Origin: a virus
Direction: 5' to 3' (one strand)
DNA: 64,000 nt
Virus record (IMG/VR): IMGVR_UViG_3300025886_001957
Location: 1-64,000 of that record
Part shown: positions 3,462 through 64,000 of the stretch, one piece after another
Position numbering within the stretch: the stretch's first letter is position 1
Layout: each line of letters starts with the position of its first letter
Translations under genes and position numbers: made by a program
Notes under the pieces: model-generated
What the model was told of the DNA's origin: nothing
What the model saw: the letters and a program-made list of their open reading frames with translations, nothing else
Database searches by the model: none

Positions 3462-5679
3462 GTACTTTAGGATTGATTATTATTTCTTTATCTTTTACAT
3501 CGATATTTACAGTTCCGCCACCTTTTAATTCACTAAACAACATAAGACGACTTAGTGGGCGTTTAATGTCTTTGTCAATTACACGTTGCAAAGGTCGAGC
3601 ACCCATTTTAGGATCAAACCCTTTTTCAACAAGTAGATCAAGTGCTTCATTTGACACTGTAATTTTAATGTCTTTGTTATTTACTTGTTCGCGTAGCTCT
3701 CCTAAAAATTTGCCAACAATCTTCATCATAACAGGTTTACCAAGTTTAGCAAATGTAATAACACTATCTAATCTATTTCTAAATTCTGGAGCAAAGAATT
3801 TTTTTACTTCAGTATCCTCATACTCGTTTTCAGCAGCACCTCCAAATCCGATTGTATTTTTTTCAGCTTCTTTAGCGCCAAGATTGGTTGTGAGAATTAA
3901 TACACAGTTACGTGCATCAGCTTCTTTTCCGTTTGAACCTGTAACTTTTCCGTTATCCATTAACTGTAATAGTACAGAGCTAACATCAGGGTGTGCTTTT
4001 TCAATTTCGTCAAGCAGTAGTACACAGTTAGGATTTTCTTGTAGCTTAACAATAAGCTGACCAGCATTATCATCAAATCCAACATATCCTGGAGGCGCTC
4101 CAATAAACTTTGCGACACTGTGCTTTTCTTGATATTCACTCATATCAAATCTTACAAGTTTAACACCAAGGTGATGTGCTAGCTGCTTTGCTGTTTCAGT
4201 TTTACCAGTACCTGTTGGGCCCATAAACACAAATGATCCAATCATTTTATCATCGGCTTTTAGACCTGCTTGGTTGATAAGTATCTTATCAACTACAGAT
4301 TCAATAGCGTTATCTTGACCATATACACTACCTTTTAAATTGGTTTCTAAATTAACAAGGTTATCTGTTTCAGTTTCAGCAACTTGCTCTTCAGGAACTT
4401 TAATCATCTTTGAAAGTTCAAACTGAATATTGCTTGCTTCTACAATTTTATTCTCAGTTTGTTCATTAACTTTGAAACGAGAACATGCTACATCAATTAA
4501 ATCAATTGCTTTATCAGGTAACTTTTTGTCAGTTTGATACTTAACACTTAGACTTACTGCTTCGGTAATTGCATCGTCGGTAATTTCAACCTCATGGAAT
4601 TCTTCATAGTATTTTTTAATACCTTGTAAAATCTCAATGCTCATTTGTGTACTAGGTTCATCAATGGTTACACGCTGGAATCGCCGCATAAGAGCACGAT
4701 CTTTTTCAAAATATTTTCTATATTCTTCCCAAGTAGTTGATGCAACTACTTTAATATTACCTTTAGCAAGTGCTGGTTTAAGCATATTTGCTAAATCGTT
4801 ACCGCCATTGCCACCATTGCCAGCACCGTTAATCATGTGTGCTTCGTCAATAAACATAATAGTTTTGCCTTTTTTCTGTAAGGCTTGTAGTACCAGTTTA
4901 AATCTTTCTTCAAAATCACCACGATACTTTGAACCAGCAATCATTGATCCAATATCAAGACTGTATACATTGTATTCTTTTAGAAATTCTGGAACCATTC
5001 CGTTTACAATTTTCCAAGAAATACCTTCAGCAATTGCAGTTTTACCAACACCAGGATCACCAATAATAAGAGCATTTGATTTAGTGCGCCTTCCTAGTGC
5101 TAGTGTAACTTGTTCAATTTCGTCTTCACGACCAATTACTGGATCAATTTTTCCGCTTTTAACATCTTCATTTAGATCACTTGTAAATGCTCTAAGTGCT
5201 TTGTTAGCACTCCCTTGGTCTTCCAATTCCATGTGGTTTTCATTATGATCATCGTTACCAACATATTTAATAAAATTTTCTTTAGAAATATCAGCTTGCT
5301 GTGTAACAAAAAATGCATATGATCGCTTTTCAGATAGTATGCTGACAAATACGTCTACAATGTCAATTGTAGTACGTCCTTGAAATAATACTTGAGCAAA
5401 CGCTCGATTTAGTACACGTTCAACACTATTAGTTTTCTTTGGTTTATATTTCTTTTCATCTGTTTTAATATCGTCTAGCTTAGTTTTAAGATGATTTTCA
5501 AGGTTCACTCTCATTAAATCCGCATCGGCTTCAAAGTTTTGAATTAATTTTTCAAAACTTTCTTCGCACAACATCGCAAACAAAAGATGTTCTAATGTTA
5601 CGTATTCGTGTTTTAGTTTTTTTGCATCATTAATTGCTTTATCAAACACTGTTTGAAGAGATACACTTGGTTCTACCAT
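3442..5679 (-). CDS. clpA: ATP-dependent Clp protease ATPase subunit ClpA
   Basis: This 745-residue AAA+ unfoldase feeds substrates into the ClpP peptidase. An N-domain with Clp_N repeats (about 1-145) is the docking site for the ClpS adaptor. The first AAA+ module has Walker A GDPGVGKT near 206 and Walker B MFIDEAH near 275. The second has Walker A GPTGTGKT near 486 and Walker B VLLLDEIEKAH near 553. No ClpB/Hsp104-type coiled-coil middle domain is present. An IGF tripeptide near 607 (NTIGFGG) is the loop that docks into ClpP hydrophobic pockets, which marks it as ClpA and not a ClpB disaggregase. Length matches bacterial ClpA (about 750). The same window encodes ClpP and ClpS, so a full phage ClpAPS machine is likely. 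A TTGACA promoter lies just upstream. Confidence 0.95.
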   Translation of the reverse strand: MVEPSVSLQTVFDKAINDAKKLKHEYVTLEHLLFAMLCEESFEKLIQNFEADADLMRVNLENHLKTKLDDIKTDEKKYKPKKTNSVERVLNRAFAQVLFQGRTTIDIVDVFVSILSEKRSYAFFVTQQADISKENFIKYVGNDDHNENHMELEDQGSANKALRAFTSDLNEDVKSGKIDPVIGREDEIEQVTLALGRRTKSNALIIGDPGVGKTAIAEGISWKIVNGMVPEFLKEYNVYSLDIGSMIAGSKYRGDFEERFKLVLQALQKKGKTIMFIDEAHMINGAGNGGNGGNDLANMLKPALAKGNIKVVASTTWEEYRKYFEKDRALMRRFQRVTIDEPSTQMSIEILQGIKKYYEEFHEVEITDDAITEAVSLSVKYQTDKKLPDKAIDLIDVACSRFKVNEQTENKIVEASNIQFELSKMIKVPEEQVAETETDNLVNLETNLKGSVYGQDNAIESVVDKILINQAGLKADDKMIGSFVFMGPTGTGKTETAKQLAHHLGVKLVRFDMSEYQEKHSVAKFIGAPPGYVGFDDNAGQLIVKLQENPNCVLLLDEIEKAHPDVSSVLLQLMDNGKVTGSNGKEADARNCVLILTTNLGAKEAEKNTIGFGGAAENEYEDTEVKKFFAPEFRNRLDSVITFAKLGKPVMMKIVGKFLGELREQVNNKDIKITVSNEALDLLVEKGFDPKMGARPLQRVIDKDIKRPLSRLMLFSELKGGGTVNIDVKDKEIIINPKVLENEKV

Positions 5680-43527: not shown

Positions 43528-44183
43528 CTAAGTTTTCCTTTAAATCCAGGAGGTACTGCTAACGACATTCTACCGTCAAACAGATTGTTTGTTCCGTAAG
43601 GACCGTTAACATCATTATAATGTAAAAATACCTGGGCATGCCTTGTTCCTTGAAATTTTTCTCTCCAATGTTCAATCTCTTCACCTTTATACACTATCAT
43701 ATCTCCTGGATTTAGATATATCGGAGTGCCTGTATTTCCAACTTCTCCCGAACCATCGACCCACATTGGCCAATTATATGTTTTGTCATCATTTTCATAA
43801 CCTATACACAATGTAGTTGAAATTTCACACGATGGTCTATCTTTATGCCTCTCTAAGGTGTCGCCATTTTTATATAGACGCCAGTAGGAATAAGTTGGTG
43901 CTAATTGAAGTCCTGTGGTTTTTTCTAACACTGAAGCAGACTTGCCTAATAATGCTTCCATTACACCGTCAGCATAACAGGAATATGTATCAACTACCTG
44001 TGGATCATTAAATCCGCCGTCAGTTTCTGGTCGATAATATTCATAATTATTATTTAATAATAAACTTGCTCTACCAGACCTTAATAAACAATAATTGTAA
44101 ATAAATTCAGTAAACTCTTTAGTGAGAAAATTTCTCACTACTGCATAATTATGTTGTTTAAAAAATTCTTGATCAGTTGACAT
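43524..44183 (-). CDS. 2OG-Fe(II) oxygenase-like protein, 219 aa
   Basis: The protein has 219 residues. ERHKDRPSCEISTTLCIGY supplies the HxD pair, and EEIEHWREKFQGTRHAQVFL supplies the distal His and the 2OG-binding Arg. The N-terminal third (KQHNYAVVRNFLTKEFTEFI) is typical of the family. It is the middle member of three adjacent oxygenases, so they may act in sequence on one substrate. No substrate can be named. Confidence 0.82.
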   Translation of the reverse strand: MSTDQEFFKQHNYAVVRNFLTKEFTEFIYNYCLLRSGRASLLLNNNYEYYRPETDGGFNDPQVVDTYSCYADGVMEALLGKSASVLEKTTGLQLAPTYSYWRLYKNGDTLERHKDRPSCEISTTLCIGYENDDKTYNWPMWVDGSGEVGNTGTPIYLNPGDMIVYKGEEIEHWREKFQGTRHAQVFLHYNDVNGPYGTNNLFDGRMSLAVPPGFKGKLR

Positions 44184-45246: not shown

Positions 45247-46320
45247 TTATTGTGGTACTTTTGCATCAATACCTTTGACATAGTATTGCATACTGTCAAG
45301 ATGTGCTCTATCGGCAATCTCGCCATCGGCTAATACTTGGTTACCTTGATTGTCCCAAAGAGGACCAGTAAATGCAAAGTATTCACCGTCACGAATTGCA
45401 TCATGTACTTCTTGTGCTTTTGCAGCTACGTTGGCTGGCATATTTGTAAATGGTGCCATTTCGACAGAACCATCATTCATATGACCAAAATATGTTCCAG
45501 TTTTCCATGTTCCGTTAATAACTTGTCCTACCTTTTCAATATAGTATGGACCCCAGTTATCAATAGTTGCTGTTAGCTGGGCATCAGGAGCAAATTGACT
45601 TTGGTCACTTGCTTGACCAAATCCTACTTTGCCCATTTTTTCTGCTGTTTGTAACGGCGCTGGAGAATCGGTGTGTTGTGCAATAACATCACAGCCTTGA
45701 CTCATTAGTGCTCTTGCTGCATCAGATTCTTTACCTGGGTCGTACCAAGTCATAACCCATACAATATCAATATCCACATCAGGATTTACAGTTTTTGCTC
45801 CTAAGTAATAGGTATTAATTTCACGAATTACTTCTGGAATTGGATAGGCTGCAACATAGCAAATTTTATTTGTCTTGGTCATCATACCTGCAATTACACC
45901 TTGGACGTGACGAGCTTGATAAAGACGTAGACCGTAGTTTGCAAAATTAGGACCTGATTTGTAACCAGTTGCGTGTTCAAACTTTACATTTGGAAATTGT
46001 TTTGCAACTTTTTCCATAGCATTCATATAACCAAACGATGTTGCAAAAATAATATCATGGCCGCTCATGGCCATTTGTCTAATAACTCGTTCAGCATCTG
46101 GACCTTCAGATACACTTTCAATGTAAGTAGTTTCAACTTGGTCACCGTATGCTGCTTCTACTTGTTGACGACCGATATCATGACGATATGTCCATCCATG
46201 GTCTCCAACTGGTCCAACATACACAAATCCAACTTTAACTTTGTCAGATCCTGCAGATGCTGATGATAATGATACTATTGATACAAGTGCAATAGTTAAG
46301 ATATTTGTTAGTAAATTCAT
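45247..46320 (-). CDS. BMP/PnrA-type ABC transporter substrate-binding protein
   Basis: The protein has 357 residues. A Sec signal peptide (1-23, ending SSASA) is followed by the BMP-family periplasmic fold: KVGFVYVGPVGDHGWTYRHD, then DIIFATSFGYMNA and IDIVWVMTWYDPGKESDAAR, and later DVIAQHTDSPAP. These match the PnrA/Med/BmpA group, which binds nucleosides or related ligands. There is no lipobox Cys, as expected for a Gram-negative periplasmic protein. No permease or ATPase gene is next to it, so it would work with host transporters, much as phage PstS does. A terminator-like hairpin follows. Confidence 0.92.
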   Translation of the reverse strand: MNLLTNILTIALVSIVSLSSASAGSDKVKVGFVYVGPVGDHGWTYRHDIGRQQVEAAYGDQVETTYIESVSEGPDAERVIRQMAMSGHDIIFATSFGYMNAMEKVAKQFPNVKFEHATGYKSGPNFANYGLRLYQARHVQGVIAGMMTKTNKICYVAAYPIPEVIREINTYYLGAKTVNPDVDIDIVWVMTWYDPGKESDAARALMSQGCDVIAQHTDSPAPLQTAEKMGKVGFGQASDQSQFAPDAQLTATIDNWGPYYIEKVGQVINGTWKTGTYFGHMNDGSVEMAPFTNMPANVAAKAQEVHDAIRDGEYFAFTGPLWDNQGNQVLADGEIADRAHLDSMQYYVKGIDAKVPQ

Positions 46321-50859: not shown

Positions 50860-50888
50860 ACACTAGCATACAGATACTAGCAAGTCAA
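50860..50888 (-). promoter_or_regulatory. Possible sigma70-type promoter
   Basis: TTGACT (50888-50883), 17 bases, TAGTGT (50865-50860). The -10 is weak (3/6), but spacing and position before the ATG at 50824 match the other promoters. Confidence 0.35.
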
Positions 50889-51679
50889 CCATGTTTTTCT
50901 AATTTCTTTTTATTCTTGTAATATTGCTTTTTACGTTCTGCAATTTTTTCTTTATTATTCTTGAGATATTCTGCAATTTTTTCTTTATTATCTTTGCGAT
51001 ATTGCTTTTGATATTCTGCAAGTTTTTCTTTATTATTCTTGCGATATTCTGCAAGTTTTTCTTTATTATCCTTGCGATATTCTGCAATTTTTTCTTTATT
51101 ATCCTTGTGATATTGCTTTTGATATTCTGCAATTTTTTCTTTATTATTCTTGTGATATTGCTTTTGATATTCTGCAATTTTTTCTTTATTATCCTTGCGA
51201 TATTGCTTCATATCTTCTGCAATTTTTTCTTTATTATTCTTGCGATATTGCTTTTTCTGTTCTGCAATTTTTTCTTTATTATCCTTGCGCCATTGCTTTT
51301 TATTTTGTTTGTATCGTGCTAAAATTTCTGGATCTGATGACAGGCTTCCAGTAAACAACCCATGTTTATAAAATGAACTGTTTTCACCTGACTGATCAAC
51401 ATATCTAGGATCTCCTAAACTACGGTTGTAATATTTGTTCCATCGACGTGCTTTTCTATTTTTTAAAAGTTCGTGTTCTAGAATACATATTTCCTCATCT
51501 GTACCGTAAGCAAGTATTCGTCTGCGAACACCTGTAGGAATATTGTCCTTTTTAAATCTCTTCCAAATCGTAGACGAATGTGTATAAGAATCGTCAGGTG
51601 TGCCTTTGTGTTTACCTAAATAGAATTTTTTATTATTAGAGTCAAACCATAAATAAACAAAAGAATCATTTTTAGACAT
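50885..51679 (-). CDS. GIY-YIG-like endonuclease with Lys-rich repeat tail
   Basis: The protein has 264 residues. The N-terminal 110 residues contain FVYLWFDSNNKKFYLGKHKG, a degenerate GIY-YIG core (YLW...YLGKH), then SSTIWKRF and ILEHELLKNRKARR, where the Glu may be the metal ligand. From about residue 127 to the end it is built from repeated RKDNKEKIAEYQKQY-like units. It may be a free-standing homing endonuclease whose tail binds DNA. Repeat-tailed proteins of this kind occur in other large phages (from memory). Confidence 0.65.
   Translation of the reverse strand: MSKNDSFVYLWFDSNNKKFYLGKHKGTPDDSYTHSSTIWKRFKKDNIPTGVRRRILAYGTDEEICILEHELLKNRKARRWNKYYNRSLGDPRYVDQSGENSSFYKHGLFTGSLSSDPEILARYKQNKKQWRKDNKEKIAEQKKQYRKNNKEKIAEDMKQYRKDNKEKIAEYQKQYHKNNKEKIAEYQKQYHKDNKEKIAEYRKDNKEKLAEYRKNNKEKLAEYQKQYRKDNKEKIAEYLKNNKEKIAERKKQYYKNKKKLEKHG
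50925..51310 (-). repeat. Coding tandem repeats, 45- and 33-nt units
   Basis: About nine imperfect units encode (R/H)K(D/N)NKEKIAEYQKQY (45 bases) or a short form without QKQY (33 bases). They are nearly identical at DNA level, with the phrase TTCTTTATTAT recurring in each. Units are contiguous, so this is not a CRISPR array. Copy number probably varies between related phages. Confidence 0.85.
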
Positions 51680-53824: not shown

Positions 53825-54051
53825 TATGGATGGATTATAATATAACTCAAGCTGGTAGTAGTTTTAGAGTTGAAGGAGACTGGCCAGGCGAAGTTATGGG
53901 ACTTGACAAACAAGGTAATCCTGGATTTAAAGATAATCCTTTATACAAACCTGGCGATGTGTTTATTGTAAATAATGGCGGATGGCTAGTTAAGACCGAC
54001 GAAGTTAACGCATTATTATTAAAACACGAATCTACTTCGAAGTCGCAATAA
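53821..54051 (+). CDS. Hypothetical protein, 76 aa
   Basis: The protein has 76 residues with a KPGDVFIVNNGGWLVKTDE segment, beta-rich and possibly a small barrel. It ends 20 bases inside the 3' end of the converging adenylate cyclase gene. The function is unknown. Confidence 0.6.
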   Translation: MIWMDYNITQAGSSFRVEGDWPGEVMGLDKQGNPGFKDNPLYKPGDVFIVNNGGWLVKTDEVNALLLKHESTSKSQ

Positions 54052-56077
54052 ACACACCGTTCCAATCAGTAGGCAAGTCTTGTGTTTTTTGAAATTCGCA
54101 ACGTTCTATCCACATGTTATAATATCCTTCTAACTTAGCATCAAAATGTCGCATAAGTTTATTACACAAGTCAATTGCTTCGTCAAATTCTTGTAATCTA
54201 TATGCTTGATGCATACGTTGATGCATCTCTTGGCTTTTGCGTTGCGCTGGAGTTTTTTGAACATCTAACACTGTCCATATTCCAATTCCTATAGTTTTGC
54301 CCTTGACTGCTAAGTCATCTATTTTTAAATAGAAAAAGTCATTTTTAGTTTGCTGATATGTAGCATCACCAACAAGCAGGACACATCCATATTCTTTACA
54401 TTTACTTTCTATTCGTGCTGCTGTTGAAACAGAATCTCCGAGGACGTCATAACTGTGTCGCTGTGTACTTCCCATCTCGCCCAAATAACCAAGACCAGTA
54501 TTAATGCCAGCCCCCATACCAACGGGTGGCCTACCTTCTGCTGTAATTTTCTCATTAAATAACTCCACTGCTTTAAGCATGTCAAGACCGCATTGTACTG
54601 CGGTTTTTGGATGTTCAGGATCATCTATAGGTGCATTGTGTATGTGCATACTAGCATCACCAATGTACTTAATTATCATTCCATCCATATCTAATACTGG
54701 TTGCGTAATTGCATCCATGTATGAGTTCATAACCTTTGTTAGTCCTTTTACATCGTCGCCAAATGATTCACCTAATGGAGTGAAGCCACGTAAATCACTG
54801 AACACAATGCTAACTTCTTTCTTCATACCTTCTTTGATTAGTGCAGGATTTTCCTGTAGCATACGCACCACTGTTGGTGATGCATATCCTGCAAACTGTT
54901 TTTTAATTTCTTGTTTTTGTAAAAACTCATCTAAGAACTTAGGTATATATCTTGCTAGTCCTACCGTAATTAAAAACACAGCAGGAATAAATCCATCAAT
55001 CAATATCAGGTGCTCAGAAAACATCCAGTAACTAAATCCTATGCTGCTGCCCACGGACACTACAAAGAAGGCTATACCTATGTATGTCCAACGAGCTATT
55101 AATATCATTGCAATTCCTACAATAATAAATGCAGCGATTTCACCCCAAGCCTTTGCATCAGGATGTCTTACTATATTAGATTCGTTAAAAACTGTACCTA
55201 ATAGTGTAGCTTGTAATTCGTGTGGAAATATACTTCCTTTAGCTGTAGCAATTGGTTGTGTAATACCAGCAGCGGTAGGACCTACAAATACTACAGCACC
55301 AGCGAAATCATCAGGTAACTCTACAGCACTTGCTTTTATATTTTGTTGACTCCAATCAATCCATACTCTTCCAACTGTATCTGTTTGTAGGAATCCAAAT
55401 TGTGGTATACGTAGTTTATCTACTCCTAACTCATTTAGTTTAATTTGGAAGCTAGGATCACCTGCTAGTACACGTAGTACTTCCATTGTTACATTTGGAT
55501 ATAGCGTGCCGTTTGATTCTAGTATTAACGGAGCTCTGCGTGTTACTCCATCAATTTCGGCAAATGTATTTGTTATACCACTACCATATGCATTATTTTC
55601 AATAGTCGGAACGTTTGCAATAATACCCGGAGCATTAGGAATCATGTGCATGTATTCTGGATTTATAATTGCTGCACCTGGATTAATTGGAGTATTTTTA
55701 TCTTTTGTAGAACCTAGCATTGTTACTATCACAGGGTAGTTCTGCATGGTTAATGCAAGTACATCATCTTGAGATGATCTATCATTCTCTGACATTAACA
55801 CATTAAACACCACAAGTCCAGCGCCTCTGGCATATAAATCCTCTATAAGGCTAGCATAATCGCCTCTTGGCCATGGCCATTGACCACGTGCCTCTAAACT
55901 TGGTTCATCGATGTTTACTGTGTAAATGTTATTTTGTACAGAAGTTTGATTTATAATTAATGTATCAAAATATTTTAATCGAATACTTTCTAAAAAATTA
56001 GGATTTGATAGATATACATAACTTAATACACATAATAATAATACACTCCAGACAGACGAAAAGATAATTTTATGCAT
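54032..56077 (-). CDS. CHASE2-domain class III adenylate cyclase
   Basis: The protein has 681 residues. One N-terminal membrane helix (1-24) leads into an extracytoplasmic CHASE2 sensor (about 30-300; NIYTVNIDEPSLEARGQWPW, VVFVGPTAAG), then about three membrane helices (305-375) and a cytoplasmic cyclase (about 415-600). Metal-binding Asp residues are in IVFSDLRGFT near 425 and IIKYIGDASM near 468. The Lys in IIKYIGD and the Asp in YDVLGDSV predict ATP, not GTP. The transition-state Asn is replaced by Ser in VSTAARIES, though the Arg is kept, so rate may be reduced. A C-terminal helical tail follows. A FecR-domain gene lies nearby, a pairing common in bacterial genomes (from memory). Confidence 0.92.
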   Translation of the reverse strand: MHKIIFSSVWSVLLLCVLSYVYLSNPNFLESIRLKYFDTLIINQTSVQNNIYTVNIDEPSLEARGQWPWPRGDYASLIEDLYARGAGLVVFNVLMSENDRSSQDDVLALTMQNYPVIVTMLGSTKDKNTPINPGAAIINPEYMHMIPNAPGIIANVPTIENNAYGSGITNTFAEIDGVTRRAPLILESNGTLYPNVTMEVLRVLAGDPSFQIKLNELGVDKLRIPQFGFLQTDTVGRVWIDWSQQNIKASAVELPDDFAGAVVFVGPTAAGITQPIATAKGSIFPHELQATLLGTVFNESNIVRHPDAKAWGEIAAFIIVGIAMILIARWTYIGIAFFVVSVGSSIGFSYWMFSEHLILIDGFIPAVFLITVGLARYIPKFLDEFLQKQEIKKQFAGYASPTVVRMLQENPALIKEGMKKEVSIVFSDLRGFTPLGESFGDDVKGLTKVMNSYMDAITQPVLDMDGMIIKYIGDASMHIHNAPIDDPEHPKTAVQCGLDMLKAVELFNEKITAEGRPPVGMGAGINTGLGYLGEMGSTQRHSYDVLGDSVSTAARIESKCKEYGCVLLVGDATYQQTKNDFFYLKIDDLAVKGKTIGIGIWTVLDVQKTPAQRKSQEMHQRMHQAYRLQEFDEAIDLCNKLMRHFDAKLEGYYNMWIERCEFQKTQDLPTDWNGVFIATSK

Positions 56078-56093
56078 ATTAACTTCCTTTTAG

Positions 56094-56291
56094 TTATTCA
56101 TTTTGTATATTAATTGGAACGCAATACGCCCATGTCCTAAATTCTATTGGTGCAGATGAATACGTACTCTGTTTACTTATCTCTTTGGCAACATGTATAC
56201 ATTCAGAAATATTATTGTAGTGTGTATCATTACTAATTTTTGTTGGGTTTGACATTCCTATCATTACTACTAATAAAAATACAGATTTCAT
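56094..56291 (-). CDS. Small secreted protein, 65 aa
   Basis: The protein has 65 residues: an N-terminal signal-like helix (MKSVFLLVVMIGMSN) and a mature part with two Cys (ISECIHVAKE, WAYCVPIN), so one disulfide is possible in the periplasm. It lies between the cyclase and a conserved phage membrane protein. The function is unknown. Confidence 0.6.
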   Translation of the reverse strand: MKSVFLLVVMIGMSNPTKISNDTHYNNISECIHVAKEISKQSTYSSAPIEFRTWAYCVPINIQNE

Positions 56292-56292
56292 G

Positions 56293-56775
56293 TTACCACT
56301 TTCCAGTTCCTACTCCGATTATAAACACAATTGCTCCTAGTGCTGTTGCTGCCAAGACTGCTAATACAACAATTGCAAGAGTATCAAGAAATGCTTTCCT
56401 TTGTTGTTCTTGCTTATACACAGTTGCTTCACGTTGCTTTCGAATCTTGCGGCGCATTTCTTTAAGTTCTTCCATAGTGCCCCAGCCAAATCGATAGTTT
56501 AATAAGGTTGCAAGTTCTTTTTCTTGTTCCATTAATTTCTTTTCATGTATTAGTAGATTAAAAGCTTCTTCTTCGACACTACGAGACTGTAATATTTTTT
56601 TAAAGATAGGAGGTTTTTTTTGAGACGTTTGCGCATAGCGAAAGTCAGCTGATGCTGTATACCATTTGCCTAATTGCTTTGCTACGTTCTCAAAATCTTG
56701 CCCTGCATTTACAAATTTTTTAACAGTACTAAACGCTACTGTAGCAGCAGATATTGCTGAAATTGGATCTATCAT
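56293..56775 (-). CDS. Conserved T4-like phage membrane protein, 160 aa
   Basis: The protein has 160 residues: MIDPISAISAATVAFSTVKK, then a charged helical middle (EEEAFNLLIHEKKLMEQEKE, EMRRKIRKQREATVYKQEQQ) and a C-terminal hydrophobic helix (DTLAIVVLAVLAATALGAIV). From memory, this pattern is common in marine T4-like phages near tail-fibre genes. It is a tail-tip or membrane-interacting protein at best guess. A late promoter is 16 bases upstream. Confidence 0.75.
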   Translation of the reverse strand: MIDPISAISAATVAFSTVKKFVNAGQDFENVAKQLGKWYTASADFRYAQTSQKKPPIFKKILQSRSVEEEAFNLLIHEKKLMEQEKELATLLNYRFGWGTMEELKEMRRKIRKQREATVYKQEQQRKAFLDTLAIVVLAVLAATALGAIVFIIGVGTGKW

Positions 56776-56791
56776 GTTTTTCCCTCAACAG

Positions 56792-56799
56792 TATTTATT
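56792..56799 (-). promoter_or_regulatory. Late-type promoter AATAAATA
   Basis: AATAAATA lies 16 bases before the ATG at 56775, followed by GAGGGA as ribosome site. It overlaps the stop of the beta-barrel gene. Confidence 0.6.
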
Positions 56800-57148
56800 A
56801 TTTTCCTATAGGTATTTCAACGCCTATAACAATACCAGTTTTTATATTGCCTGTCCTATTACGTTCGTATGCTGGCGCTATAAACATTTTTAAATTTTCT
56901 GTATTATATATGACTCTTATATATGGAGAAACTTTATCAAATGTTGTATATCCTGTTACACCTCCAATTTCAAAACTAAAGTTTTCACCAGTTGGTATAT
57001 TAATTCCTCCATACCAGCTTAATCTATTAATACTATTATAATATACACCACTTATTGTACTACCTTCTAAAAATCGAATATGTGGATGTATGCTATTATA
57101 TTCGTTAGTTACTCCTAAGTGTGTGCTAAGTGCTAGTCCTAAAATCAT
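56798..57148 (-). CDS. Small outer-membrane-barrel-like protein, 116 aa
   Basis: The protein has 116 residues with alternating hydrophobic strands and aromatic girdles: FSFEIGGVTGYTTFDKVSPY, LKMFIAPAYERN and IKTGIVIGVEIPIGK. This is the look of a small beta-barrel (PagP- or OmpW-like), and its place beside curli genes fits the outer membrane. There is a short hydrophobic N-terminus (MILGLALSTHLG) in place of a full signal peptide. No family is certain. Confidence 0.6.
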   Translation of the reverse strand: MILGLALSTHLGVTNEYNSIHPHIRFLEGSTISGVYYNSINRLSWYGGINIPTGENFSFEIGGVTGYTTFDKVSPYIRVIYNTENLKMFIAPAYERNRTGNIKTGIVIGVEIPIGK

Positions 57149-57160
57149 TTGTAATACCCT

Positions 57161-58348
57161 TTAATTTTGTAATATCGAAACAGAACAACCTGCTGTATTT
57201 GTACAACTTCCAGTAAGACTGTATGTTTGAGCAGTACTACTATTCTGTTCAGTAGTTACACTATATGCGCCACCCCCATTGGTTACATTAATTTCCATAT
57301 TATGTGCGCCGTTGCCGTGTTGCAATGCATCAACTGTATGCCCGTCTCCTGTTACTAGTACATCGGCAAATAAACTGTTAGAACTCTTCTGTGTTAACTC
57401 AATGTTATTATTGTCGCCGGTTACTTCAATAAATCCCTGGTGCTGTCCATTTTTACGTTGTTCATGTAATATATCATTATTATCACCTGTAACAATGTTT
57501 GCCAAATGTTTTGAACCACTACAGCAACTAGTTTTTTGATCTGTTTGAGTATGTTTATAAACATTATTATCACCTGTAACTGTTACGTATGCTTCGTGAT
57601 CGCCGCCTTCGATTGTATCAACTGTGCCGCTGCCGTATTTTCCTTGCCAACTTATTACACTGTTATTACCTCCAATAACAACTCCACGTAGAAAATTACT
57701 TTCGCCGTCACCGCCCTGATATACATCAATAGTATTATCATCTCCGATTAGCATACCTTCAAATTGTTCGTATTGTGAACCATTTTGTGTAACTGTAAGA
57801 GTATTACGATCGCCAGTAATAGGTGTGCTGTCTATGCCACTAGTACTATGATTATTACCATCTTGATCAATTGTAATAGTGTTATCATCGCCGTTAACTT
57901 CTACATATGCTTCGTTATCATCTCCGTCTTGTGAAACTGTAATAGTTTGATCATAGTCGCCGCCATTGCCTAGCTCGGCATATACTGTATTGTCATCGCC
58001 GGTTTGTGTTAAAATAATCTTTGCATTATTACCGTGACTATCTGCCACAGCAATATTTCTATCACCAGTTTGACTAATTGTTTGCTGTCCATTCCCGGCA
58101 CTTTGATATAATCCTATACTATTATTATCACCTGTTTGTGTGTAAGAATTATCTTGATTATTTCCATGTAGTGTAGCTTTAGCTGTGCTACTATGAAGAT
58201 GACTTATAGTATTATCTTGGCCATCTTGATCTATAGTCAAGTTGGTATTATTTCCAACTTGCTTAATATAGATATCATTTGCATAACTACCACTCGCGTT
58301 GAATAATAGTAATACTATTGCCAGTGGTTGTACCCAACCTATAATCAT
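57161..58348 (-). CDS. Curlin-repeat secreted protein, 395 aa
   Basis: I chose the ATG at 58348 because a signal peptide follows at once (IIGWVQPLAIVLLLFNASGSYA); an ORF from 58432 would lack one. The mature part is built of many repeats with the curlin signature QxGxxNxxxxxQ: IYIKQVGNNTNLTIDQDGQD, SYTQTGDNNSIGLYQSAGNG, QTISQTGDRN and more, about 15 units up to near residue 360. This matches CsgA/CsgB-type amyloid subunits, but it is much longer than CsgA (151). Two Cys close the C-terminus. Export would use the CsgG pore encoded upstream in the same operon. Confidence 0.88.
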   Translation of the reverse strand: MIIGWVQPLAIVLLLFNASGSYANDIYIKQVGNNTNLTIDQDGQDNTISHLHSSTAKATLHGNNQDNSYTQTGDNNSIGLYQSAGNGQQTISQTGDRNIAVADSHGNNAKIILTQTGDDNTVYAELGNGGDYDQTITVSQDGDDNEAYVEVNGDDNTITIDQDGNNHSTSGIDSTPITGDRNTLTVTQNGSQYEQFEGMLIGDDNTIDVYQGGDGESNFLRGVVIGGNNSVISWQGKYGSGTVDTIEGGDHEAYVTVTGDNNVYKHTQTDQKTSCCSGSKHLANIVTGDNNDILHEQRKNGQHQGFIEVTGDNNNIELTQKSSNSLFADVLVTGDGHTVDALQHGNGAHNMEINVTNGGGAYSVTTEQNSSTAQTYSLTGSCTNTAGCSVSILQN

Positions 58349-59429
58349 AGTATTCAAAGTCTTGTTGCTCCATGTCGATCGTATATCCATAGTTTTGATC
58401 AAGTCGTAATCTAAAATAATTATCGCTTCCATTATCCTCTCGACTAATCTCCCAACTACCTTCCCATTCTTCTAATTGTATTCCTGTTGTTAAATCTATG
58501 CCGGTTTGGTATTGCTTAAAAAATAAAGAATTTTGTATATCTAATTCATTACTAAGTCTAGCCATAAGTGCTGCATTTAGTGCATCAAGCATATCATATA
58601 GTACATCGGCAAAAATGTAATCTGTTTCATCAAGCTGTGTTGACCAAATTCCGTCAATACTGTCTTGAAGTGCATCAGCATCTAACCCATCAAATTCTAG
58701 CATATCGATACCTAAGAAATCATATTGTGCTCTTGCTTTTCTTAGGATTTCAGCTTCTTCGTCTTCGTAAGGAGTGCGCTTTCTTAGAATTAATAACTGT
58801 GTAAGATTTTGTTCTTCTATATCAAGTATAAGAGGTTTTGATGGCGGTTGATTGCTAGTGCTAGTCATAGTTGTTTGAAAAGATTGATTCATAATAACTA
58901 TACCTGCATCAGTCTCAACTTCTATTTCTCCTGTATAACATACTCCTTGATCATTGCAACTCGGTAGTAAGGTTATCATTGATCCTCCAAGTTCGTCAAC
59001 TACCATTGCAAAATCTGTGCCGCGGACATTAATAGTTGCACTTGGCGTTCTTATATTAACATTTTGTCTAAAGTTTTTAGCAATTTGGCCACTAGCATAT
59101 CTAATTCCTCCAAGGCTTGCTTTAATACTTAATTTACCTATTCCGTTAGCTGGGTCGTATACAAATTCATCAATTAATAGTCGACTATGTTCTGTTAAAT
59201 CAACCCTAGTATCATCAATAAAATCAATTTGCATAGTACCTCGTGCTGTTACAGCAGTGTCAAGGCTTTGTACACCAATTCCTTTATCGCCAACTACTAC
59301 GTCATTGCCTCTTTCAAGAACTCCTGACCCTTGTATTTTCCCAATTTGTCCAGCAGAATCAACAGCAGCAAATGCTATCGAGGTTAGACAACCTAAGTTA
59401 ATCAGACTGATTAATATTAACTGAACCAT
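58287..59429 (-). CDS. FecR-domain secreted protein, 380 aa
   Basis: The protein has 380 residues. A signal peptide (1-21, ending AFAA) precedes a FecR-type domain (about 30-165): MQIDFIDDTRVDLTEHSRLL, then RTPSATINVRGTDFAMVVDE, the conserved core. The C-terminal half is helical with an acidic stretch. In bacteria, secreted FecR-domain proteins are often beside CHASE2 cyclases and may assemble at the envelope; this gene lies between two curlin-repeat genes, so it could organise the fibres. It overlaps both neighbours (32 and 62 bases). Confidence 0.85.
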   Translation of the reverse strand: MVQLILISLINLGCLTSIAFAAVDSAGQIGKIQGSGVLERGNDVVVGDKGIGVQSLDTAVTARGTMQIDFIDDTRVDLTEHSRLLIDEFVYDPANGIGKLSIKASLGGIRYASGQIAKNFRQNVNIRTPSATINVRGTDFAMVVDELGGSMITLLPSCNDQGVCYTGEIEVETDAGIVIMNQSFQTTMTSTSNQPPSKPLILDIEEQNLTQLLILRKRTPYEDEEAEILRKARAQYDFLGIDMLEFDGLDADALQDSIDGIWSTQLDETDYIFADVLYDMLDALNAALMARLSNELDIQNSLFFKQYQTGIDLTTGIQLEEWEGSWEISREDNGSDNYFRLRLDQNYGYTIDMEQQDFEYYDYRLGTTTGNSITIIQREW

Positions 59430-60135
59430 CGTCGCCTGTCATTTCTAAATTTACTTTGTTGTCATTTATTCCACTTTGTGTTATGTCAATTAGATTGCCG
59501 CCTCCTGTGATATCTAATGTAACTGCATGTCCTCCGCTGTCTCCATCGCCACTAATGTCTATATCAATTAAGTTTCCACCGGCGTCGGTACTATTACCTG
59601 ATGCTACGTCATTTAGAGTAGTTGAACTAGATGTACTACTATTATCTACAGTAACAGTAACGTCTGCATTAGTCCCGTCTACTTCGGCTTGTATAACATT
59701 TCCATCGCCGTCAATTGTAAATGCTGCTACTAAATTTTGTGCATCATTTGTTTCACCAGCAAAAATATCAAATGTATTATCATCGCCAGTTGTTGTAATG
59801 TTAACAGTCACATTATCACAATTAACACCGTTGGTTGAATCACATTTCATATCAACGTTGTTTGAATCTCCAGTAAATGTCCATGTTCCTGTGTAGGTGC
59901 TACCATCAATAATTGCATCTATTTTATTTGTATCACCAGTTTGTGTAATTGCAAAAGTCATTGAATCGCCAGAGAGCATGGCATCTTTTGTGCTATCGCC
60001 AATTTCATTATTTTGCCCATCTTGTATTATATCTAAATCTAATGTGTCGCCAACTTGTTCGATATAAATTTCATTTGCTAACAAACTTGATCCAAATAAT
60101 ATTAAAGTAGCAATTATTATTATTTTTATTTTCAT
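59398..60135 (-). CDS. Second curlin-repeat secreted protein, 245 aa
   Basis: I chose the ATG at 60135 (AGGTGAGG just upstream) over a GTG at 60144. The signal peptide (KIKIIIIATLILFGSSLLA) is followed by IYIEQVGDTLDLDIIQDGQN, near-identical in form to the first curlin protein. Later repeats are more divergent and Asp/Thr-rich (TFAITQTGDTNKIDAIIDG, NLIDITQSGINDNKVNLEMT). With the longer partner it could be nucleator and subunit. The overlap with FecR suggests one operon. Confidence 0.82.
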   Translation of the reverse strand: MKIKIIIIATLILFGSSLLANEIYIEQVGDTLDLDIIQDGQNNEIGDSTKDAMLSGDSMTFAITQTGDTNKIDAIIDGSTYTGTWTFTGDSNNVDMKCDSTNGVNCDNVTVNITTTGDDNTFDIFAGETNDAQNLVAAFTIDGDGNVIQAEVDGTNADVTVTVDNSSTSSSTTLNDVASGNSTDAGGNLIDIDISGDGDSGGHAVTLDITGGGNLIDITQSGINDNKVNLEMTGDDGSVNINQSD

Positions 60136-60140
60136 TGCCC

Positions 60141-60950
60141 TCACCTAAACTCTTTAAATTTCCAAAGACCCTTTCTTTCGCCCTCGTACACCATTTCAAC
60201 TACTCCGGCCTCAATAGCTGCTCTTACAGCATAATTTACTGGTTCGTTAATTGACCATCCAATTTCGCTTTCAACTGCTTTAGTTCCCATATCAAAAAAC
60301 TTAAAAACATCAGTTCCTGAACGATAGCTAGCAATAGTTTTTTCAGTTGCTACACTAAATAGTACCCTTCCTGTACTAACACTTACTATTCTCATTACTA
60401 CAGTTACATAGTCAATTCTATATTCATCTTGCAACCCTAGTCCTAAGTAACGTGCTCCAACTCCTCCAGTTGAAACATTACTATCATAACCAACAATACC
60501 GCCTTCCAGTAAAAGTCCTGCAAACAACATTGGCTTAAGGGCAGTTGGACCATGTGGTTTTTCTTTTTCATATGTATCTCTTGTGTTTCTTATTAGTTGT
60601 CGTTCTTTAATCAAATGCTCCATGCCAACACGCTCTACAACTTCAAACCAAGTTCCATTTCCGACTTCCTGTAATGCTTTAATTACCCATACTTCGGATC
60701 CTTGTGTAACTGCACTACTAAGATTTGCTATCTTGTCTGCAGGTTTACGCTGACCCGTTTTATCTAAAAAATTATAAACAGCAATAGTCATCTTTTTAGC
60801 ATCAAGTTCAGGCACGGCATCTAGACGTATCTGCTCAGGTGCCGTTTGTATTCTTGCTGGACCTACTGACTTTTTGATATCTTGAGATTTCTGCCATCCA
60901 GTACAACTTGTTAGAATACACACAACCAATATTAATATTATATTTTTCAA
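60141..60950 (-). CDS. csgG: CsgG curli secretion lipoprotein
   Basis: The protein has 269 residues (E. coli CsgG 277). The lipobox is LTSC with Cys16. The body is that of the CsgG pore: ITIAVYNFLDKTGQRKP-like strand start (here MTIAVYNFLDKTGQ), SEVWVIKALQEVGNGTWFEV, GGIVGYDSNVSTGGVGARYL (the constriction-loop region, with Tyr and Asn) and AVRAAIEAGVVEM. It would form a nonameric outer-membrane channel for the curlin proteins. Its stop lies close to the curlin start and its ATG overlaps the csgF stop. Confidence 0.95.
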   Translation of the reverse strand: MKNIILILVVCILTSCTGWQKSQDIKKSVGPARIQTAPEQIRLDAVPELDAKKMTIAVYNFLDKTGQRKPADKIANLSSAVTQGSEVWVIKALQEVGNGTWFEVVERVGMEHLIKERQLIRNTRDTYEKEKPHGPTALKPMLFAGLLLEGGIVGYDSNVSTGGVGARYLGLGLQDEYRIDYVTVVMRIVSVSTGRVLFSVATEKTIASYRSGTDVFKFFDMGTKAVESEIGWSINEPVNYAVRAAIEAGVVEMVYEGERKGLWKFKEFR

Positions 60951-61423
60951 AATGCAAACTCTCCACTGCCCGGAATATTAATTTCAGTATATCCATCATC
61001 GCCATCTACAATAATTGTAATTTCACCAGTATCAGGATTTTTAGCCCAGGTTATTTCAGCACCTTCAATATTGGCACTCCCGCTATCAGGTGGAACACAT
61101 TCAGTGTCGTCAGCCTCGCATGTAGCAAACATAGCATCAACAAGTTGCTTGCTCATTGTAGCATATATTCTACTTTCAAGATTACGCATAAATTTTGTAA
61201 GTATTGAACTATCGCCTTCTCGTTCTAATGCTCTGTTAGCTGCTTCAGCATCTTTACGACGATCTTCTCGTCTATTGTACTGTAGTTGTTCTACGCTTAA
61301 TACATGAGTTGAATATCCATTTCCATAGTGAAATGCTGGGCTTTTAAATCCCCATCCTAGCTCACTTGAATATGTTACTGATCCTATAAAGATTAGTATA
61401 ATAATTAATATTGGTAGCTTCAT
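60947..61423 (-). CDS. csgF: CsgF-like curli assembly factor
   Basis: The protein has 158 residues (E. coli CsgF 138). A signal peptide (1-19) precedes ELGWGFKSPAFHYGNGYSTH, the segment that inserts in the CsgG channel, then a charged helix and FMRNLESRIYATMSKQLVDA, the CsgF helical region. It ends in a beta part with ITIIVDGDDGYTEINIPG. CsgF caps CsgG and attaches the nucleator. It has four-base overlap with csgG. A TAAATA motif ends five bases before its ATG, so a leaderless late message is possible. Confidence 0.9.
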   Translation of the reverse strand: MKLPILIIILIFIGSVTYSSELGWGFKSPAFHYGNGYSTHVLSVEQLQYNRREDRRKDAEAANRALEREGDSSILTKFMRNLESRIYATMSKQLVDAMFATCEADDTECVPPDSGSANIEGAEITWAKNPDTGEITIIVDGDDGYTEINIPGSGEFAF

Positions 61424-61435: not shown

Positions 61436-62131
61436 CTATAGTTTAGGGAATAATAAGTCTCTACAAAATATTTCTACATCATTCTCAGGTAATCCAAGAC
61501 TTTTCATTACAGCTGGTGTATGAGGATTCATCTGTTGATTTGTACAATAATAGTTGTGCATTTTTTTATTATACTCAACATCTAAGATATCTTGATATGT
61601 TGAATACTTGGTAATTTCTTCTAAATAATACACAGTGTTAGATAAAACAATATCAATAATTTGATCTATTTCTTCTGTAGTACTAACATTACTAGCAGAA
61701 ATCATCCACGGTGTAAATATATTACTTGCCCATTCGGGTAACACTCTTTCCTTAGTTGGTGTATAATCTCTTACACTCTCTTGAAACCCTTGAATCATTG
61801 GATGATCTATGCCGCCGCTAGTTTCGCTAAAATCATGAAATGCACCTGTAATTTTATTTTTACCGGCAATAACGTCGAAGCCATAAATGGGTCCATTGTT
61901 ATCCATGGATGGAAACATACAAACATGCATCATCCATAGACCTTTAGTATCCCTAGCATCAACTACATCAACATGTGCTCGGCGAATGTGTTGATTAACC
62001 CATGTTCTATTAATCCAATTGTTATGATTAAATTGTGCTAATGCTGGTTCATGATATTCAGCAGCATTATCGTTGAGTAGTTTAATAATTTGATTTTGAC
62101 AATCAACAAGTTTATTCCATATAAGGCTCAA
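61436..62131 (-). CDS. Ferredoxin-dependent bilin reductase (PebS/PcyX-like)
   Basis: The protein has 231 residues, the size of cyanophage PebS. The family core is PIYGFDVIAGKNKITGAFHDF at 81-101; Asp86 is the candidate proton donor. RAHVDVVDARDTKGLWMMHV at 51-70 and the C-terminal NKKMHNYYCTNQ also fit. The enzyme reduces biliverdin to a phyco-type bilin using ferredoxin. The upstream heme oxygenase would supply biliverdin, with a 20-base gene overlap. From memory, PcyX-type enzymes of uncultured marine phages have this exact gene pair; which double bonds it reduces cannot be read from sequence. The 7Fe ferredoxin at 13128 is a possible electron donor. Confidence 0.9.
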   Translation of the reverse strand: MSLIWNKLVDCQNQIIKLLNDNAAEYHEPALAQFNHNNWINRTWVNQHIRRAHVDVVDARDTKGLWMMHVCMFPSMDNNGPIYGFDVIAGKNKITGAFHDFSETSGGIDHPMIQGFQESVRDYTPTKERVLPEWASNIFTPWMISASNVSTTEEIDQIIDIVLSNTVYYLEEITKYSTYQDILDVEYNKKMHNYYCTNQQMNPHTPAVMKSLGLPENDVEIFCRDLLFPKL

Positions 62132-62669
62132 TGTCCAACTCCATTAATTCTTGAAATAATTTAGTTGCAGATTCAAATACATAGATTGCTTCAGTAGCCA
62201 TATCATCTGTGGTCTTGCTTCTTATTATTTCTTTTAATGCTGCTTTATCGCCGTCAAACTGATACATTTGTTTTGACCCTGGTACCTTACGTGCTATCAT
62301 TTGCCCTCCGCTTAGGTCTCCCATATGAAGTGTATAGATGTGTGCTGTTAACAATACAGGATCTTGCATAATTTCTTTCATATGCAAAATATATTCATGA
62401 GTGCTAGGTAGTACAACAGGTGATTCGTTGTGATTCCATAATTCGTTAAAATCTTGTTCAATTTTTAAATGACGACTTACTCCAGGAAGATCGTCAAATA
62501 TTCCATGAGAACTTGCAAGTGTTTCTAATAATTTATATTTTTTATGTTGATTCCACAAATATGTAGCATATAACTCAGGATTAATTTTTCCACTCATCAA
62601 TACTTTAACAAATTTTTGTCTTTCTGCATTTCGATGTTGATCATGAGTTAATTCTTTTAATTTACTCAT
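62112..62669 (-). CDS. ho: Heme oxygenase
   Basis: The protein has 185 residues. The proximal heme ligand is His12 in THDQHRNAE and the distal helix has GDLSGGQMIARK at 117-128, both family hallmarks. It opens heme to biliverdin with release of iron and CO. In this operon biliverdin would go to the bilin reductase; gain of iron is the other benefit. It is a little shorter than plastid-type enzymes (about 235). It overlaps the clpS stop by four bases. Confidence 0.95.
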   Translation of the reverse strand: MSKLKELTHDQHRNAERQKFVKVLMSGKINPELYATYLWNQHKKYKLLETLASSHGIFDDLPGVSRHLKIEQDFNELWNHNESPVVLPSTHEYILHMKEIMQDPVLLTAHIYTLHMGDLSGGQMIARKVPGSKQMYQFDGDKAALKEIIRSKTTDDMATEAIYVFESATKLFQELMELDIEPYME

Positions 62670-62977
62670 TCTTCTTCAATCTTTATTCGTAAAGGAAATC
62701 CATTATCTCGACTTAGTGTAGTTGCTTCAACAGATTTTTGTTCAGCAATTTCGTAACTGTATATACCAACTACTCCTGATCCTTTTTCATGAATTTCAAG
62801 TGTTAACGAAAGTGCTGATTCTTCTGAATGTTTAAATAATTCGGTTATTAATGATATTACAAAATCCATTGGAGTTTGCTCATCGTTAAGAAATACTACC
62901 TTATAACGACTTGGCTCGTCAATATTAATTTTAATTTTATCATTTATTTTTATATCTAAGTCAACATCTGTGGTCAT
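62666..62977 (-). CDS. clpS: ClpS N-end rule adaptor
   Basis: The protein has 103 residues. YKVVFLNDEQTPMDFVI holds the Asn-Asp pair that binds the N-degron amino group, and LEIHEKGSGVVGIYSYEIAE holds the third ligand His. The flexible N-terminus needed to engage ClpA is present. It would send N-degron substrates to the phage ClpA-ClpP. A hairpin leader lies before it, and heme oxygenase overlaps it by four bases. Confidence 0.94.
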   Translation of the reverse strand: MTTDVDLDIKINDKIKINIDEPSRYKVVFLNDEQTPMDFVISLITELFKHSEESALSLTLEIHEKGSGVVGIYSYEIAEQKSVEATTLSRDNGFPLRIKIEEE

Positions 62978-62992
62978 TTTTAAATCCTTTTA

Positions 62993-63015
62993 TTAGGGGG
63001 AGTTATTCCCCCTAA
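62993..63015 (-). promoter_or_regulatory. Perfect hairpin in the clpS leader
   Basis: A 9-bp stem (TTAGGGGGA with TCCCCCTAA) encloses a five-base loop. It starts about eight bases after the predicted late start, between the AATAAATA at 63029-63036 and the AAAGGA of clpS. It could also act as an hsp20 terminator, but no T-run follows. Confidence 0.6.
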
Positions 63016-63028
63016 TGTACTTAGTTAA

Positions 63029-63036
63029 TATTTATT
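63029..63036 (-). promoter_or_regulatory. Late-type promoter AATAAATA upstream of clpS
   Basis: AATAAATA overlaps the hsp20 stop codon, 51 bases before the clpS ATG, directly followed by a hairpin. The same layout is found before hsp20. Confidence 0.45.
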
Positions 63037-63475
63037 TAAGTGTGCTGACAGTTGAAATATTAATTTTTTTAGGTTGATCAGCTTCAGGAACTTCTCTAAC
63101 TAAATGAATATTTAACATTCCTAATTCAAGTGTAGCATTTTCAACCTCAACATTATCGGCTAGTGTAAACTCTTTTTTAAAGTTACGACCAGCAATACCT
63201 TGATGTAAATAGTTTATACTGTTGTCATTAATCGTTGTTTTACGACCTTCAATTCTTAAAACATTCTTTTCTTTTAGAATATCTAAATTGTCCATATCAA
63301 ATCCTGCAACAGCTAACGAAATTAAGTATTCATTTTCGTTGAGTTCTATTAAATTATATGGTGGATAATTAGTAGCTGATGTAGTTGTAAAACGTTCCAT
63401 CTGATCAAATAAATTATCAAATCCAACTGAGGTTCTATGAAAATTAGGGAAGTCTATTGTTTGTAATCTTGTCAT
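63032..63475 (-). CDS. hsp20: Small heat-shock protein Hsp20/IbpA-like
   Basis: The protein has 147 residues from the ATG at 63475 (AAGGAG upstream); a longer frame from 63526 would read through the leader hairpin. The alpha-crystallin domain runs from about 36 (YNLIELNENEYLISLAVAGF) to 125, with VLRIEGRK and the GIAGRNFKKEFTLADNV block. The C-terminal IxI-like motif is ISTV. It holds unfolding proteins for DnaK/DnaJ and ClpA. It is located between dnaK and clpS. Confidence 0.93.
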   Translation of the reverse strand: MTRLQTIDFPNFHRTSVGFDNLFDQMERFTTTSATNYPPYNLIELNENEYLISLAVAGFDMDNLDILKEKNVLRIEGRKTTINDNSINYLHQGIAGRNFKKEFTLADNVEVENATLELGMLNIHLVREVPEADQPKKINISTVSTLK

Positions 63476-63503
63476 GTTATTTCTCCTTATATAAGCAAGA
63501 TAT

Positions 63504-63527
63504 AGTGGACCCAATAAGGCGTCCACT
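63504..63527 (-). promoter_or_regulatory. Leader hairpin of hsp20
   Basis: AGTGGAC pairs with GTCCACT and CC with GG around TTATT, leaving one G bulged. A second weak helix, CTTATATAAG, includes the AAG of the ribosome site AAGGAG. The combination resembles a heat-sensing leader, but it is not a ROSE element that I can recognise. Confidence 0.5.
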
Positions 63528-63529
63528 AG

Positions 63530-63537
63530 TATTTATT
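63530..63537 (-). promoter_or_regulatory. Late-type promoter AATAAATA upstream of hsp20
   Basis: AATAAATA abuts the dnaK stop codon, 54 bases before the hsp20 ATG. The expected +1 lies at the first bases of the leader hairpin. Confidence 0.45.
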
Positions 63538-64000
63538 TAAGATTCTTGGGTAAATTCTGCATCTACAATTTCAGCATCATCTTTATTAAGATCGTTTGGT
63601 TCTTCTGGTTTTTCTCGTTCTGCCTTAATTTTGAATACAACTTCCATTGCTGTTAACAGTTCTTTGGTTTTTTCTTGCATATTATCAGTGTCATCAGTTT
63701 TAGCTGATTCTAAACAAGTTGAAGTTGCTTCTTCAATTGCAGTTTTTTCATCTTCGGACAAATCGTCTTTTACTTCGTTATAGTCTTTTTGTAGTTGAGC
63801 AACAGTTGATTCTGTTCTATTTCTTTCATCGACAATTTTTCTGCGCTGCATATCATTTTCAGAATTTTCTTCAGCATCTTTAATCATCTGTTCAATTTCG
63901 CTCTCAGATAGTCCGCCACCAGATTCGATAGTAATATTCTGTTCTTTACCTGTGCCTTGATCCTTTGCACTTACTGAAAGAATTCCGTTAGCATCAATAT
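63537..64000 (-). CDS. dnaK: DnaK/Hsp70 chaperone, C-terminal part (5' end beyond window)
   Basis: About 154 C-terminal residues are visible; the gene continues past the right edge. The beginning [20 protein letters not shown] followed by [17 protein letters not shown] is the end of the DnaK substrate-binding beta domain and the start of the helical lid, which is complete to the acidic Asp/Glu tail ([18 protein letters not shown]). The tail is normal length for bacterial DnaK. It should work with the phage DnaJ at 5741 and Hsp20 next door. Confidence 0.95.

Follow-up and report, generated by a model that had tools for sequence, protein, structure and literature searches.

A conserved phage-borne curli secretion module with a FecR-domain protein and a CHASE2 nucleotide cyclase, and its possible role as a fibre-sensing circuit

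The 64,000-nucleotide stretch of a large marine phage analyzed here (positions 1 to 64,000 of the IMG/VR virus record IMGVR_UViG_3300025886_001957; hereafter the window) carries on its minus strand, from 61423 to 54032, the genes csgF, csgG, a curlin-like gene, a FecR-domain gene, a second curlin gene, and a CHASE2 cyclase gene, as identified by Pfam profile searches. This module is real, well conserved, and largely published. A type VIII secretion system (T8SS) with FecR and adenylate cyclase was reported from pelagiphages in 2022 (PMC9599517), the csgF/csgG part in phages had been described earlier (PMC7029224, PMC9004378), and the order csgF-csgG-curlin-FecR-curlin-cyclase is annotated in HTVC008M (KC465899, 7562–13807) and Melnitz (MZ577097). 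Because of these reports and records, the novelty that a first-pass annotation of the window had claimed for the addition of FecR and a cyclase does not stand. New here are the phage lineage, a bacterial six-gene operon, the curlin-type tail of the FecR protein, a linkage between FecR and CHASE2, and exchange of the sensor domain. With slightly less than even confidence, we propose that the phage-borne curli module has its own envelope sensor, in which the FecR protein would report fibre export to the CHASE2 cyclase; the wiring and the output of this circuit are what we infer.

Gene content and conservation of the module

The block comprises the following genes.
60947–61423, minus strand: csgF, T8SS accessory protein (PF10614 CsgF, 2.5e-8; phrog_35372, 1.5e-38; signal peptide)
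60141–60950, minus strand: csgG, outer-membrane curli pore lipoprotein (PF03783, 4.3e-48; lipobox LTSC; TTG start)
59398–60144, minus strand: curlin-like subunit 1 (listed with a GTG start; an ATG at 60135 is also possible; identified by homologues and AlphaFold model)
58287–59429, minus strand: FecR-domain protein (PF04773 FecR, 1.5e-7; signal peptide; model pLDDT 85.6)
57161–58348, minus strand: curlin-repeat subunit 2 (Curlin_rpt, 3.1e-19 on 57161–58432; signal peptide from the ATG at 58348)
56798–57148, minus strand: small barrel-like protein, optional (weakly PagP-like, phrog_3600, 1.2e-5)
56293–56775, minus strand: phage protein of phrog_32327, optional and mobile in position (relatives in phages)
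56094–56291, minus strand: small open reading frame (ORF), optional (ORF list and locus comparison)
54032–56077, minus strand: CHASE2 domain, transmembrane region, class III nucleotide cyclase, and conserved C-terminal tail (PF05226, 3e-35; PF00211 Guanylate_cyc, 1.6e-16; phrog_35576, 1.2e-172)

The identities proposed in the first-pass annotation for CsgF, CsgG, the curlins, FecR, and an envelope-facing CHASE2 cyclase were confirmed by Pfam, homologues, and modelling, and profile searches placed 60141–60950 and 60947–61423 inside the CsgG and CsgF families, respectively. Near-full-length PHROG families were found for the main genes of the block except the two curlins. A full-length match linked the window CsgG to solved structures of Escherichia coli CsgG (2.1e-47), and its lipobox is kept in 62 of 67 homologues. 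CsgF contains the N-terminal motif F-x-x-P-x-F-x-G, with F26, P29, F31, and G36 invariant among 19 sequences. Curlin-1 had no Pfam match at the gathering level; 30 of its 34 homologues match Curlin_rpt at E ≤ 1 (best 4.4e-7), and its AlphaFold model is an all-beta repeat protein (predicted template modelling score 0.80). A CsgG pore lipoprotein, CsgF, and secreted curlin-repeat subunits are thus all present at the level of sequence or model. By these matches CsgG/CsgF and the two predicted secreted curlins constitute a type VIII (curli) secretion module, which supports the earlier reading as a pore and fibre. As that reading had also stated, the curli proteins CsgE, CsgC, and CsgD appear to be missing: CsgE was not found, and CsgC and CsgD were not seen among the genes of the block by Pfam search. 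All three are accessory and often missing outside the gammaproteobacteria (PMC9599517).

The TTG start of csgG overlaps the csgF stop, the last 32 nt of curlin-1 overlap the beginning of FecR, and the start of curlin-2, which is more likely at 58348 than at 58432 as first annotated, lies inside the FecR gene (~60 nt overlap). These overlaps suggest coupled translation of the genes concerned.

The same gene order was seen in more than 100 viral loci as well as in two cultured phages. Loci were collected independently via CsgG and via the cyclase from the best 80 matches of each search, so that the sets favour near relatives and some loci share one contig. Within them, each of the 85 CsgG loci that extend >9 kb downstream includes the cyclase, and each of the 102 cyclase loci that extend >6.5 kb upstream includes CsgG. 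Alongside CsgG, FecR was found in 129 and curlin-1 in 133 of 134 loci. The smaller genes are variable: of 113 countable loci, 29 have the barrel-like gene between curlin-2 and the cyclase, and 25 have the phrog_32327 gene, which elsewhere lies upstream of csgF. For the former, a weak likeness to PagP is all that was recovered of its first description as a barrel-like protein. The latter had been taken for a conserved T4-like gene, but its relatives are instead found in roseophages and one Limnohabitans phage.

A bacterial counterpart was detected in two contigs of Caulobacteraceae metagenome-assembled genomes (MAGs; L087 and L088), which contain csgF-csgG-curlin-curlin-FecR-CHASE2 cyclase. The flanks of L088 are clearly bacterial and include an SpdA/CpdA-like cyclic-nucleotide phosphodiesterase upstream. 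FecR and the cyclase are missing from three other alphaproteobacterial curli loci. As read from these contigs, the Caulobacteraceae operons qualify the published statement that cyclase and FecR do not occur within bacterial T8SS operons. Curli modules of the phage type were also observed on contigs in Pirellulales, Rhodobacteraceae, Flavobacteriaceae, and Pelagibacter MAGs (L084, L085, L086, and L093), which their phage-like module order and similarity mark as probably mis-binned phage contigs. In a Litorimonas contig (L148, 9785–15140), FecR, a CHASE2 cyclase, and a CpdA-like phosphodiesterase are clustered without curli genes.

The FecR-domain protein and its link to the CHASE2 cyclase

In the structure model, the FecR-domain protein consists of a signal peptide, a FecR domain (~27–190), a helical linker of low confidence, and a confidently modelled C-terminal beta domain (~317–377) of six strands, whose pairs are ~20 residues apart. 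Hydropathy analysis predicted no transmembrane helix past the signal peptide in 61 of 67 homologues, and the inner-membrane anchor and cytoplasmic sigma-binding domain of the FecR iron-citrate anti-sigma regulator were not found. The tail contains the motifs Y-x-I-x-L-x-Q and N-x-I-x-I-x-Q at a spacing of 22 residues; Q355 and Q377 are conserved, the latter being invariant among 67 sequences. A C-terminal hydrophobic-x-hydrophobic-x-Q motif occurs in 95 of 98 viral FecR proteins and in both Caulobacteraceae curli FecR proteins, compared with 14 of 78 other FecR proteins. A pair of such motifs 20–25 residues apart was present in 64 of 67 module FecR proteins (shuffling would give ~1) and in 63 of 67 curlin-1 tails, in contrast to none of the 78 other bacterial FecR proteins and 0–1 of 67 CsgG, CsgF, or cyclase tails; the viral sequences are mutually related, and these counts are not independent trials. 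Profile comparison aligned the FecR tail with the last curlin-1 repeat. Foldseek searches with the FecR model returned FecR/anti-sigma domains and a 76-residue cell-surface anchoring domain (5ix9) but no curlin. Since curlin-1 itself had no significant Foldseek match, this library cannot decide the nature of the tail. Because its C-terminal domain appears to be of the curlin type and is absent from the 78 other FecR proteins, the FecR protein is probably a secreted, curlin-tailed component of the fibre or of the secretion apparatus.

The window cyclase keeps the catalytic residues D, K, D, and R, and the metal-binding Asp, the Lys, and the Arg are invariant among 91 viral cyclases. From the conserved Lys/Asp purine pair, the product is probably cyclic AMP (cAMP). 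The CHASE2 domains of the phage modules fall into two classes that are about 60–70% different and, on a tree of CsgF, CsgG, and curlin, have been exchanged about nine times. The window and Melnitz cyclases accordingly share 87% identity in the catalytic domain and 32% in the sensor. In a common set of alphaproteobacterial genomes, 15 of 50 FecR matches have a CHASE2 gene no more than 7 kb away versus 0.5 expected, and these pairs are mostly found without curli genes. Among the segments of the phage module, the N-terminal domain of FecR was the best predictor of the CHASE2 class (92% versus 77–83% for other segments; partial r 0.27). FecR residues 125 and 134, which were chosen after looking at the data, were among the most informative. 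Taken together, the sequences are suggestive of a co-segregation of FecR and CHASE2 that is not strict. Strict co-evolution was not upheld, as independent contrasts were suggestive at most.

A fibre-to-cyclase circuit and alternative readings

According to the proposed model, an infected cell would produce curlin-type subunits and export them via CsgG/CsgF, and the C-terminal curlin domain of FecR would engage either the fibre or the route of export, with its N-terminal domain remaining periplasmic and being read by the CHASE2 domain. Cyclase activity would then report fibre export or envelope state, and the FecR protein would be a fibre-linked sensor ligand rather than an iron regulator. The likely benefit would be an altered surface of the infected cell, which may lead to aggregation or to shielding against other phages. 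This model is supported by the conservation of the module, the curlin-type tail of FecR, the FecR-CHASE2 linkage, the pairing of FecR with a CHASE2 kinase in a Burkholderia biofilm operon (PMC5192318), and the location of the bacterial six-gene operon near a CpdA/SpdA-like phosphodiesterase.

Several observations weigh against it. Melnitz-infected cells did not clump (PMC9004378). The profile similarity between the FecR tail and curlin is modest, with 2 of 300 column shuffles scoring equally well. Pfam Curlin_rpt matched one of 67 FecR proteins (E 0.039), so that Pfam alone does not show a curlin tail, and the Caulobacteraceae FecR carries the last motif only. Across eight independent sensor swaps, FecR residue 125 was concordant in four, discordant in none, and unchanged in four, including the two latest. 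In the cyclase, the transition-state Asn is replaced by Ser (Ser551 in the window) in 86 of 91 viral sequences, whereas bacterial relatives have Asn, which makes cyclase activity uncertain. Finally, no convincing cyclic-nucleotide-binding (cNMP-binding) domain was found in the 20 phage records searched.

A more doubtful possibility is that the module is a self-contained circuit, with a FecR-curlin hybrid in or held by the fibre, an exchangeable CHASE2 sensor, and a cyclic-nucleotide readout without a CRP-type receptor, and that unrelated marine phages, large and small, share it and have shuffled its domains.

It is unlikely that the cyclase is the main point of the module and that cAMP or another cyclic nucleotide reprogrammes host regulation, with the fibre genes merely serving as input. 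The invariant or nearly invariant catalytic Asp, Lys, Asp, and Arg residues and the far higher conservation of the catalytic domain than of the sensor between window and Melnitz are in line with this explanation, as is the lack of a class III cyclase in all 121 Pelagibacter-genus genomes searched (L093 lies in a MAG titled Pelagibacter, and this is the genus that was searched). The Ser at the position of the transition-state Asn and the missing receptor argue against it: besides the negative result in the phage records, cNMP-binding matches were weak and lay inside 870-aa frames in 10 of the 121 genomes. cAMP signalling, which the first-pass annotation had envisaged, is therefore unsupported as a signal to the host.

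We give still less credence to the proposal made for Melnitz that CsgG/CsgF have been repurposed as a gated pore or a pinholin-like device for lysis timing, with the other genes being residual. A structural argument and a neighbouring glutamine riboswitch in Melnitz (PMC9004378), as well as the missing CsgE cap, favour such a pore. Yet in essentially every locus csgFG is still accompanied by two curlins, FecR, and the cyclase, and the window phage has its own, separate endolysin genes. Moreover, Melnitz was stated to lack csgA/B (PMC9004378), but its record annotates two curlin-repeat genes.

That FecR is an iron or heme regulator, that the pore imports siderophores or heme, and that the upstream heme oxygenase and bilin reductase belong to the same system is improbable. 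An iron/siderophore idea has been put forward (PMC9599517), and both enzymes are encoded directly upstream in the window. The domain layout disfavours it: unlike sigma-regulating FecR, the module protein has a signal peptide, mostly no later transmembrane helix, and a curlin-type tail. Of 61 loci with sufficient sequence upstream, just 22 had both heme oxygenase and the PcyX-like reductase, and the two were thus rejected as obligate partners of the module. A misassembly of bacterial DNA into the phage contig, which the bacterial ancestry of the genes could suggest, is refuted, with only a negligible chance of being correct, since the same order occurs in two cultured phages and in more than 100 viral loci, and the three genes inserted before the cyclase in the window also accompany the block in L004/L165.

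Phage lineage, neighbouring genes, and related systems

An origin of the window from a SAR11 T4-like phage of the HTVC008M kind was contradicted by three comparisons. Only one of 23 HTVC008M proteins matched the 96-kb record, which is probably a fragment, in tblastn searches. The window clamp loader is 55% identical to those of PA5oct-type jumbo phages versus 35–37% to those of HTVC008M and Melnitz, and 58–89% identical to those of other curli-bearing contigs, one of which is 237 kb long. The TerL of HTVC008M had only distant relatives, in contigs of 221–330 kb. An HTVC008M-like phage was thus rejected, and the window phage belongs, as judged from its clamp loader, to the PA5oct-type large-phage lineage. 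The clamp-loader and TerL comparisons also indicate that the curli module is present in several lineages, large phages included. No paper linking jumbo phages with this module was found in the open-licence literature. The single matching HTVC008M protein is ferrochelatase-like (43533–44165, minus strand; 41%). A PnrA/Bmp-like ATP-binding cassette substrate-binding protein (45247–46320, minus strand) is ≤59% identical to chromosomal proteins of diverse alphaproteobacteria and may be a host clue.

Directly upstream of csgF, the minus strand encodes dnaK-like/hsp20-clpS-heme oxygenase-PcyX-like bilin reductase (61436–63887), and many contigs have the order hsp20-clpS-heme oxygenase-PcyX beside their curli genes. 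Phages are known to carry heme oxygenase/PcyX cassettes (PMC11480375). Together with a ClpA-like protein with Clp_N and AAA domains (3442–5679, minus strand), the ClpS adaptor (62666–62977, minus strand) and Hsp20 form a phage protein-quality-control set. Another ORF (50885–51679, minus strand) contains many lysine-rich YRKDNKEKIAEYQKQ repeats after an N-terminal region that is GIY-YIG-like by eye.

The window shares its gene order, the lack of CsgE/CsgC/CsgD, and an alphaproteobacterial affinity with the pelagiphage T8SS cluster, but differs in its PA5oct-type lineage, in the three genes inserted before the cyclase, and in having hsp20-clpS-heme oxygenase-bilin reductase instead of a histidine kinase upstream. 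In the main text of PMC9599517, no mention was found of the CHASE2 sensor, of a curlin-type tail on FecR, or of sensor swapping. Profile and structure matches of CsgG and CsgF, as well as the curlin repeats, link the window to bacterial curli (csg) systems, from which it differs by the missing accessory proteins and by the addition of FecR and a CHASE2 cyclase, an addition seen among bacterial curli only in the two Caulobacteraceae MAGs. In the Burkholderia BiofilmReg operon, a secreted FecR-domain protein likewise adjoins a membrane sensor with a CHASE2 domain in a biofilm context; unlike the window, that operon has a histidine kinase and response regulator as output, a FecR protein with LysM, and no curli genes (PMC5192318).

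Curli clusters of phages occur widely in the sea. If a curlin-tailed FecR protein belongs with a CHASE2 sensor, the combination of an iron regulator plus a cyclase becomes a testable fibre-to-sensor circuit. This unit reaches jumbo-phage lineages, and its bacterial counterpart would lend itself to work in culture should an isolate be obtained.

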